Assembly (NCBI GenBank): GCA_947568835.1
Contig: OX387606.1
Location: 8,804,001-8,868,000, forward strand
Direction of reading: 5' to 3'
DNA: 64,000 bases
Origin: Protonemura montana
Lineage: Eukaryota; Arthropoda; Insecta; Plecoptera; Nemouridae
A program made the position numbers and the translations under genes. The notes below the pieces were generated by a model. The model searched no databases, was not told the DNA's origin, and worked only from the letters and a program-made list of their open reading frames with translations. Each line of letters opens with the position of its first letter. Within the stretch, counting starts at the first letter, position 1. Positions 38,801-41,704 of this stretch are shown here, piece after piece.

Positions 38801-39875
38801 CGTACATTATTTTTGAATGGCGACTGCATGACATATTGCCCCGGCTTGCACTTGCGTGTTGCCGGGTAAGAATTTTATCTGTCTTATCTTATGGTCTAAT
38901 TTCGCCCCCCATAAGTCTACCACTGCTCGGCTAGACGCCGTGGAAATAGGCAGGGGTCGATAATCACACTTCCATGACCATACCTATGCCAACGTCCTTC
39001 TTCTATACTACCCTTGACTATATACCTTTCTGCATAGTTTCTCGCATTTTTTTTGCCATTTGTCTCTATGTTTACATTTGTCTAAACGTGTTACTTTTAT
39101 GACGAACATGATATTGTGGGTAGCCTTGGTAAATTAAAAGTAATTACCGTGTAATAGGTAGTAACTACTCTACGTGCACATGTGAAGTTGGAAAAGCACT
39201 TAGCGCGTATTTTTACAATTATAGTGCAGGATAGATAATAATCACTTTGAAGAAAAATGGAATAAAAATGTCGAACGATAATCAGCCTGTTTTTCGCTGT
39301 ACTTTAACACCGTTTGATGATCATCGATGATTCTCTTGCTTGCAGATCATTAAAAAAAAAGGATTGCCAATTATAAGGTAATAAATTGTATGGAATAAAA
39401 ACGGGCATAATTATCACTGATTAACGGCACGATTTAACTTTTGAGAAACCAAGAATCTATAACTATTTGAAATATTATTTATATTGCAAATGCTTCCAAT
39501 GGGCAGAGAATAGTAAAATAGCTCTCATTAATATAACGAGCACAAAGGTAGCCCGTGAGAGAAGATTGGCATTTCAAAGCCATCTGTTTGAATTTGTTTC
39601 CACGAGCCATTATCGCAAAAATGGCTCTTGAAAGCTTTGATTCTAAATTCCCTCCCAAAAATGTCATAAGTGCCTTGATCTAGAATAAAAGGTACAAGTT
39701 TTGTTTGATCAGATAATTTTGACGTTTGGCTTTCCATTTTGAAACTTGGCAATTACAGGATTTGACCATTGAACATTGATCAAGAAAATGAAATTCAGAG
39801 TAAGCCTTGTCTATGATTAGCGATAATTTATGGGAAAACGACCCCAGATTCCTTTCATATATAAAGGTTTCTTAA
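35826..39875. other. Gene-less stretch upstream of SNRNP70
   Basis: Holds the SNRNP70 promoter and leader near 35830-36000. A CpG-rich block at about 36300-36570 is open in several frames at once, the mark of base composition rather than of a gene. A GATA-word cluster lies at 37742-38089. The rest is AT-rich with no supportable exon. Confidence 0.5.
37742..38089. promoter_or_regulatory. Cluster of GATAA/TTATC words
   Basis: Eleven GATAA or TTATC words fall within about 350 bases, four of them in the first 35 (37742-37775) and two back-to-back at about 38062-38073. GATA factors bind such words and clusters are typical of enhancers, but the AT-rich setting raises the chance count. Confidence 0.3.
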
Positions 39876-40133
39876 AGGACCACCTTCAATTGACATTTAA
39901 AAATTACTGTATGTGAGGAACATCAATTAATTAAGGATCCCGTAAAAAAGAAAAATCTAAAAAAATGCGGTGCACATTTCTCGCACTTTTTCTTTTTGGC
40001 GCGAAGCTCCGTGCGTGACGTCAGAGATAGGGAGTCTGCAGCGGCAGTCTGCAAGACTGTAAGACGCGCGCTGCAGAGTCGGTAGGGTCGGCGCGCTCGC
40101 GATAGTGTCGCATTGTTTCATTGAAGTGTGGCA

Positions 40134-40706
40134 ATGGCTGGACCTTTCAGTTTAGACCCGAAGTTTACTCAGAGCGAGATTGAAGAAAATATTTGCAAAA
40201 AAGCCGATGAAAGGAGACTACAAGAATCCTTTGTAGGGCGAGCAGGAAACACCTCGTGGTGTACGTGTGGTAACTGCGTTGCAATGGACAGCGACGTAGA
40301 ATCGCATTGCTGTAAAGAGCCACCACAAATACGAGCGTTGTGCCAGAATGACGAGTGCATTACCGAGCACGGGTCATTCGACGTTATCACGAAAAGCATT
40401 GATGTGCTCAACATTACCAGGCATAAACTGATTATGCACACAGCATCCAAAGACACTAAAGACAAAATGCGCTGTCCCTCAAATAAAGTTTGGCGCCATT
40501 TGGCTTATAAATCATTTGTTTCCTGGGTCAATTCGTGGGCTGCATTAGGGAAAAATAGGCGTGTTGTTATTCCGTCCTGCGTCGTGAATTCCATTCGCAA
40601 TACGTTCCCAGAAGACGATGGAATTTACGTCGGATTCAACGCTGCAGCGATGGGTTTCACTCGCGGATTCGGGTGCGATTTGCTCGTTGACGGCTCGTTC
40701 AAATAA
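40134..40706 (+). CDS. P2X7 C-terminal (ballast) domain-like protein of a mobile element
   Basis: A 190-residue protein, intact from ATG to stop. It resembles the zinc-binding cytoplasmic C-terminal domain of the P2X7 receptor, known also from many stand-alone invertebrate proteins. The cysteine cluster WCTCGNC (residues 42-48) is followed by CC at 59-60, C70, C75 and H79. The second half has the family pattern AYKSFVSWVNSW, then RRVVIPSCVVNSIRNTFP and DDGIYVGF (about residues 124-168). There is no P2X channel part: no membrane segments and no ATP-binding ectodomain, so this is not a receptor. The start is the ATG at 40134, 110 bases inside the CRE site of the left inverted repeat. Its last 82 bases are antisense to the THAP gene. 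Function in the element is unknown. Confidence 0.85.
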   Translation: MAGPFSLDPKFTQSEIEENICKKADERRLQESFVGRAGNTSWCTCGNCVAMDSDVESHCCKEPPQIRALCQNDECITEHGSFDVITKSIDVLNITRHKLIMHTASKDTKDKMRCPSNKVWRHLAYKSFVSWVNSWAALGKNRRVVIPSCVVNSIRNTFPEDDGIYVGFNAAAMGFTRGFGCDLLVDGSFK

Positions 40707-41092
40707 TCTGGCACATGGTCCAATAACTCCTCTTTCTCCTTATTGATCAAAAACATGGACTTCTGACGCTTTTTCGGTGGAGGACAAACATTCGAATGTG
40801 ATTTACCAGTCATGAGCAACGACGGGACTGCCGTTTTCTTCAAAATGGGTCTGGATTTCACTGCATCGCCCATCAATTGCAGTTTTAGTTTGTTGCGAAT
40901 TTCAAAATCATCTTCTTGAAAATGTGCGGAACAAACACACGAGGATTTTCTTGGGACAAAATCTGTCCGATTAACTTTATGCAACCATTGCCGATACATC
41001 CCAGGAAACTTATTCTTATCTGGAAATTTGTGGAAAGAAAATGGGCCTTTCGTGTTCGAACACTGATACACAACACAATGATTGTTCACCAT
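40625..41092 (-). CDS. THAP-domain protein of the same mobile element
   Basis: A 155-residue protein, intact. Residues 1-92 form a THAP zinc finger, a DNA-binding C2CH fold shared by P-element and Kolobok transposases and host THAP factors. The zinc ligands are C6, C11, C54 and H57, with the conserved P24, W36 and F58, and an AVPSL box at 88-92 in place of the usual AVPTIF. The remainder is basic and low in structure (PPPKKRQKS, a possible nuclear signal). No catalytic domain follows. It probably recognises the element's own inverted repeats, by analogy with P-element transposase. It is read from the right inverted repeat toward the P2X7-like gene and overlaps its 3' end. Confidence 0.9.
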   Translation of the reverse strand: MVNNHCVVYQCSNTKGPFSFHKFPDKNKFPGMYRQWLHKVNRTDFVPRKSSCVCSAHFQEDDFEIRNKLKLQLMGDAVKSRPILKKTAVPSLLMTGKSHSNVCPPPKKRQKSMFLINKEKEELLDHVPDYLNEPSTSKSHPNPRVKPIAAALNPT

Positions 41093-41704
41093 TATTCTGC
41101 AGTTGGTTCACTTATAAAGTAGCAATCGTTAGACATAGCACACATAGACAAATATACGAGACAAATATAGTAACGAGAAAAAACAATCCTACTCGCAAAG
41201 AGGTATCGCACGAACTAACTGGCAGCAGCCGCGGCAACCGGGCAGCGCTTGCTAGCCCTGCAGACTACCTATCTCTGACGTCACTAGCGGAGCTTCGCGC
41301 CAAAAAGAAAAAGCGCGAGAAAATATGCACCACATTTTTTAAGATTTTTCTTTTTTACGGGATCCTTAATTAATTGATGTTCCTCACATACAGTAATTTT
41401 TAAATTTCAATTGAAGGTGTTCCTTTAAGGCTTACTATTAGTATAAGAGATAGGCATTATTAAATGCACGAATTAAACCATTTGACAAGACAGCGCACAC
41501 TAAAGACTGCAGGTAACTTCCAAGAAGTTCAGGAAAATCGTGTTTTTTGGAGCAAGGAATTGCGATGGCATGCGCCAACTATTGGCGTGGCAGCCATGAT
41601 ATTCGGAAGTTTAGATTTAATAATTATTGTTCTAAAATCCGCATGCACCATCGTTGCGCCAGTTCGCATCGCATCGCGTGCTTTTGTTTTTAGGCGACCA
41701 ACGC

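Follow-up and report, generated by a model that had tools for sequence, protein, structure and literature searches.

A recently active Kolobok-type transposon with a P2X7-type ballast gene in Protonemura montana, and its internally deleted copies

The DNA analysed here, referred to as the window, is a stretch of 64,000 nucleotides from contig OX387606.1 of the plecopteran Protonemura montana (positions 8,804,001 to 8,868,000 of the forward strand, assembly GCA_947568835.1). It holds an element bounded by inverted repeats (about 170 bp, 93-94% alike), with TTAA on both sides, much as a preliminary description of the same DNA had it (Table 1). The repeats can be divided into outer arms (39871-39979 and 41321-41429; 109 nt, 95% alike) and inner arms (39977-40041 and 41258-41322; 65 nt, 92% alike), and because such long and similar repeats surround TTAA in many copies, chance is ruled out as the source of the arrangement. 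Between the repeats lie two open reading frames. A Pfam profile search matched the first to P2RX7_C (PF20478; E 4.5e-18, score 66.3 bits, cut-off 23.5), which bears out the claim that the element carries a gene for a P2X7-type ballast domain; this gene is called KolX below. The same type of search matched the second to the THAP domain (PF05485; E 4.1e-15).

Table 1. Features of the window copy (positions in the 64,000-nucleotide window) and genes of the full-length element (positions in that element, as marked).
Feature	Position	Strand	Remarks
Left TTAA target-site copy	39872..39875	.	Read from sequence
Right TTAA target-site copy	41425..41428	.	Read from sequence
Left terminal inverted repeat	39872..40041	+	170 bp including TTAA; 5'-AGG starts the element proper
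Right terminal inverted repeat	41258..41428	-	171 bp including TTAA; element proper ends CCT-3'
KolX (P2X7-type ballast) ORF	40134..40706	+	190 aa; P2RX7_C match; compared with 180-aa full-length KolX
KolX residues 1-172, native part	40134-40649	+	Followed by 18-aa tail antisense to transposase gene
P2RX7_C domain match	40206..40637	+	Profile 64-191 of 192
Internal deletion junction	40646..40648	.	Microhomology AGC; same junction at L013 and L014
Truncated THAP-transposase ORF	40625..41092	-	155 aa, without DDE catalytic region; last residues antisense to KolX
THAP DNA-binding domain	40817..41077	-	Residues 6-92
KolX, full-length element	263-805 of full element	+	180 aa; 182 aa in L010
Transposase, full-length element	3099 to 913 of full element	-	689 aa; two predicted exons; 117-bp intron, predicted on GT-AG ends and continuity of motifs

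Comparison with a full-length parent of 3435 bp showed that the window copy is 1557 bp long and has lost 1878 bp (reference 778-2652, give or take the 3-bp microhomology). The ballast gene had been called intact, a description that does not hold strictly, as only 172 of the 180 residues are native and the final eight (GEEPEYFL) are swapped for 18 foreign ones read antisense from the transposase gene. The companion THAP protein of the preliminary description does have a real THAP domain, but it is a piece of a larger protein, truncated by the deletion that also cuts KolX: about the first 149 of the 689 residues of the transposase are left.

A search of the genome (258 Mb in 34 contigs) for further copies, as had been proposed, gave at least 23 loci of this family, designated family A, with the window included; the copy counts are lower bounds, 40 of 41 candidates having been scored. 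Four copies are full-length (L009-L012; 3435 bp, with one of 3441 bp), 16 are two-ended but deleted, among them the window copy, and three are odd: L019 has just the right end, L033 just the left part, and L025 two right halves. The full-length copies, whose inverted repeats measure 170 and 171 bp and are 93-94% alike, differ by eight substitutions and one 6-bp insertion, and this near-identity indicates that the burst was recent. The 500-bp flanks of L009 and L010 are identical on both sides, so that both go back to one insertion. TTAA was present at both ends of all 20 two-ended copies (18 others checked, L010 and the window copy). Older relics resembling family A also occur, 70-82% alike and several of them with stops. 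In L025 (C1:22582370-22584296) the right halves are arranged head to head with TTAA at both outer ends, and the locus is read as foldback-like, the outcome of repair or transposition gone wrong.

The full element of 3435 bp contains two convergent genes, KolX and a THAP/DDE transposase (Table 1). The transposase frame is open in L009, L010 and L012 and carries a nonsense codon at position 235 in L011; three full-length copies, derived from two insertions, apparently encode both genes intact. The N-terminus of the full transposase again matched THAP (PF05485, E 4.6e-14). In an alignment of 16 transposases (14 of 36 matches, frog and acorn-worm proteins included, and two sequences of this genome) at least 15 rows conserve D364, D428 and E571, the DDE triad, as well as D449 and H452 of a DVWH motif at 449-452. 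C486, H503, H508, C519 and H521, lying between the DxxH and the last E, were conserved in at least 15 of the rows, and this Cys/His set is likened to the published Kolobok motif by position rather than residue by residue. The named matches were from frogs, an acorn worm, amphioxus and a stick insect, with 31-38% identity to the frog proteins, which carry no Kolobok label. In Pfam the catalytic core stayed below the cut-offs (Mutator 21 bits against 26.5, MULE 18.8 against 27.6), so the assignment to Kolobok rests on the termini, the TTAA, the motifs and the identity to the frog proteins.

Insertion at TTAA could be followed at sites that lack the element. For the L012 insertion, six of eight matching rows, at 90-100% identity, ran without a break through all 204 bases of the joined flanks and had TTAA once; the remaining two rows are the occupied site. 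For the L018 insertion all 40 rows scored (of 1612 candidates) passed through TTAA without the element. These uninterrupted paralogous sites demonstrate precise insertion at TTAA for L012 and L018, and together with the anatomy of the ends they establish TTAA as the point of insertion. The empty TTAA site that the preliminary description had named as a check exists for two other insertions; for the window copy the search of this genome gave no uninterrupted site in 19 rows, the outcome to be expected from one haploid assembly if the site is unique. A search of the same kind for the L009 insertion gave no uninterrupted site in 15 rows.

The 16 deleted copies represent 11 distinct junctions, several of which are common to more than one site (the window with L013 and L014; L015 with L016; L021 with L022 and L024). 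The window junction recurs at L013 and L014 with different flanks at each, and among the 20 two-ended sites flanks are shared only by the L009-L010 pair and through one 133-bp repeat. The simplest reading of one junction at sites with different flanks is that the copies were moved in trans after the deletion had arisen. KolX is kept to residue 171 or beyond in six of the 16 copies, corresponding to three of the 11 junctions, and is cut earlier at the other eight junctions; among the six copies that keep it, L015 and L016 each have at least one KolX substitution. The L027 copy keeps the whole of KolX without a complete transposase. The THAP region is open in all 16, in frames of 145-307 aa, and its preservation may reflect a need for the right-end sequence in cis or a KP-like repressor effect.

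KolX is not confined to family A. The P2RX7_C profile gave 24 matches in the genome (34 candidates scored), 13 in family A, one in a family B and ten in a family C, and a protein search added weak KolX-like fragments, most of them with stops. Family B has one full-length copy of 3543 bp (L063, 838-4380) with KolX and an open transposase frame that has no intron; many short family B matches elsewhere cover only the first 34-105 residues of KolX and look like deletion copies. Family C consists of ten near-identical copies of a broken element (L056-L062 and L064-L066) within a shared segment, on C1, C2, C4, C11-C16 and C28, all within ~107 kb of a contig end. The segment, of which up to 8 kb was compared, is 98-99.95% alike near the ten contig ends, and family C spread with it by subtelomeric duplication rather than by transposition. 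In each of the three families KolX stands beside a transposase gene that converges on it, and between families KolX is 34-39% alike; the same convergent pair in three families indicates that the ballast gene belongs to the element.

One contig end (L030, C1:33120742-33122741) is (GGTTT)n in every one of 2000 bases, the telomere motif thus being TTTGG. It was one of four contig ends inspected; of the other three, one had nothing but N at the ends as printed, while the printed parts of two contained no such array. The usual telomere motif of insects is TTAGG, and a TTTGG telomere has reportedly been found in Lachnaia leaf beetles.

The full-length KolX frame of 180 aa matched P2RX7_C as its sole profile above the Pfam cut-off and has no P2X channel domain. 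Its seven cysteines and ballast fold are those of KolX in Kol0 elements, and the predicted fold, the structural check proposed earlier, agrees with that of the P2X7 ballast; a first AlphaFold run on seven rows (pLDDT 41.8) was discarded. The rows used to assess conservation numbered 40: 37 of 48 matches, after eleven short or odd ones had been dropped, plus three sequences of this genome. Three of the five GDP-contact residues listed for rat P2X7 in the available text of PMC7016195, R546, H547 and R578, correspond to R121, H122 and R155 of KolX, and for R574 and K583 the alignment gave no counterparts. The closest named insect proteins were from Macrosiphum and Ceutorhynchus assimilis. The former is an aphid and the latter a weevil. 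As the accessible part of PMC7016195 has the ballast domain not found in flies, bees or beetles, the C. assimilis protein would widen its range.

Taken together, the window very probably contains a non-autonomous copy, with an internal deletion, of a Kolobok transposon of the Kol0 type that has recently been active. This confidence applies to the identity of the element and excludes the role of KolX. The published criteria for Kolobok, as far as the available text of PMC9587614 and PMC6004289 gives them, are TTAA, the termini, THAP and the DDE motifs, and the termini AGG...CCT fit the 5'-RR and YY-3' ends by which Kolobok is separated from piggyBac (PMC9587614). Since THAP domains are present in P transposases and piggyBac uses TTAA, either of these might have been thought of instead. 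P elements, however, duplicate 8 bp according to the part of PMC7776569 available to us, whereas here the duplication was TTAA and never 8 bp in the sites checked, with TTAA in 20 of 20 two-ended copies; the ends are unlike those of piggyBac; and the 689-aa protein matched no piggyBac or P transposase model in Pfam up to E 1. Both were rejected, and there is next to no chance that the element is of either type. Another reading would have the transposon as a gene-capturing vehicle that took a ballast exon from a host gene (P2X7 or nanor-like) as a passenger. The domain does have host relatives in P2X7 and nanor, the transposon does carry it, and the conserved linkage of some ballast genes reported in the portion of PMC7016195 we could draw on allows that the host copies are old. 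Against this, three families of one genome have KolX only 34-39% alike in an identical convergent layout, KolX is a single frame with the element's own start and stop, every one of the 24 P2RX7_C matches belongs to these families, and the Kol0 elements of other animals also have it, as described in the available parts of PMC9587614. Gene capture, which is very unlikely, was rejected because KolX is regular in three families as a single frame of its own. Kol0 elements of the Kolobok superfamily regularly have KolX as their second gene, and it does not look like host-derived cargo. Thus the idea of the transposon as a vehicle for the ballast survives in that the element carries a true P2X7-type ballast with a THAP transposase gene and has moved recently, but probably not in the sense of captured cargo.

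Cut-and-paste movement is a known habit of such transposons. The transposase would bind the inverted repeats through its THAP domain, excise the element and join it into TTAA. Faulty repair of internal breaks may have given rise to deletion copies like the one in the window, and the full-length copies would move these in trans. For the binding of the repeats by THAP and the movement of the window copy in trans, this scheme draws on known relatives. The window copy itself could yield no more than a ballast protein that differs slightly from the native one, together with a THAP fragment; like the KP repressor of P elements, this fragment might be a competitor for the repeats. The keeping of the KolX-transposase pair in three families makes an accessory subunit the most likely role of KolX, and we give an even chance to its being a zinc-stabilised part of the transposition complex that may also bind a guanine nucleotide, as the P2X7 ballast does; this last point is drawn from the fold and the kept arginines. 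The P-element transposase has a built-in GTP-binding domain (PMC7776569) and the ballast gives P2X7 a zinc site and a guanine-nucleotide site of unknown function (PMC9859053), as far as the available portions of these papers go. It is conceivable, if rather improbable, that KolX would act as a trans-acting, guanine-nucleotide-binding and zinc-stabilised subunit replacing that built-in domain; if so, the GDP and zinc sites of P2X7, so far without an explanation, would have come down from a cofactor of transposition. Alternatively, KolX might act on the host or on copy number, as a repressor, silencing antagonist or target-site chooser, which we hold to be possible rather than probable. No test of its role was found in the available parts of the published descriptions, some deletion copies retain KolX (L027 all of it, without the whole transposase), and its preservation to residue 171 or beyond at only 3 of 11 junctions means that it is not clearly needed in cis, all of which would suit such an activity; the pairing with the transposase in three families fits a direct role in the transposition cycle instead, and an accessory subunit is therefore the role we prefer.

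The link between ballast and transposon was already published in 2022, and the present element adds a good example to a kind already known. Kojima and Bao (PMC9587614, in the text available) described KolX, recognised its ballast fold and concluded that a P2X4-like gene, fused to a KolX of the Kol0 lineage, gave rise to P2X7; as far as we found, this is the only paper joining KolX with Kolobok. The accessible part of PMC7016195 does not mention transposons, although it gives an Ixodes ballast ORF with a domain printed as TAHP, which is probably THAP and so fits a mobile element. The conserved linkage of ballast genes across phyla in the same source suggests that not every ballast gene is mobile. 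That an element of this sort was the source of the P2X7 domain, as the preliminary description had inferred, is therefore a proposal in print, but the lineage found here was probably not the donor. A first tree of 40 rows had long branches, and a second of 35 (seven dropped, two KolX of this genome added) placed 18 KolX-type rows, among which were the aphid protein and the three families of this genome (A, B and C), on a supported branch without P2X7 (100/98.8); P2X7 was joined by Priapulus and two unnamed proteins (99/96). The AU test rejected a tree in which P2X7 was held with the 18 KolX rows (p-AU 0.0009) and also one in which the other rows were held together without P2X7 (p 0.0024); the groups were picked after the first tree and P2X7 was represented by two mammalian sequences on a long branch, so that the result is only a hint. 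It suggests that a Kol0 donor, if there was one, belonged to another branch. A search of this genome for P2X receptors gave no match, and the control queries gave none either, so that nothing follows from it; a search for GH45, aimed at a link of the host with plant-feeding beetles, was just as silent for target and controls. If the ballast descends from a transposon protein, KolX in a possibly mobile element would be a way to its first function, and for this the genome has three full-length copies that look intact and stem from two insertions, as well as deletion copies that arose naturally and the two other families.

Among known systems the closest is Kol0 (the Kolobok-1_XT type, with KolX and transposase), which, in the descriptions available to us, shares the TTAA, the 5'-RR/YY-3' ends, a KolX with ballast fold and seven cysteines, and a transposase with THAP and a DDE core with DxxH and a Cys/His motif; the element in the window differs in its repeats of ~170 bp. 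The hosts named for Kol0 in the accessible text of PMC9587614 are vertebrates, annelids, cnidarians and sponges, with arthropods given for Kolobok overall. Unlike the ballast of P2X7 (PF20478), KolX stands alone without a channel; the conserved G139 and R143 of its LGKxxRxVIPSC stretch are D562 and F566 in P2X7, and R574 and K583 of P2X7 are absent from it. The Drosophila P element, as far as the descriptions to hand go, is similar in its THAP transposase and in having full-length copies beside many internally deleted KP-type copies with short products, but it makes an 8-bp duplication where TTAA is found here and has its GTP-binding domain inside the transposase. P elements are not known to carry KolX. 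Galileo belongs to the P superfamily and has internally repetitive repeats in the accounts available, but it resembles the present element in combining long inverted repeats with a THAP transposase.
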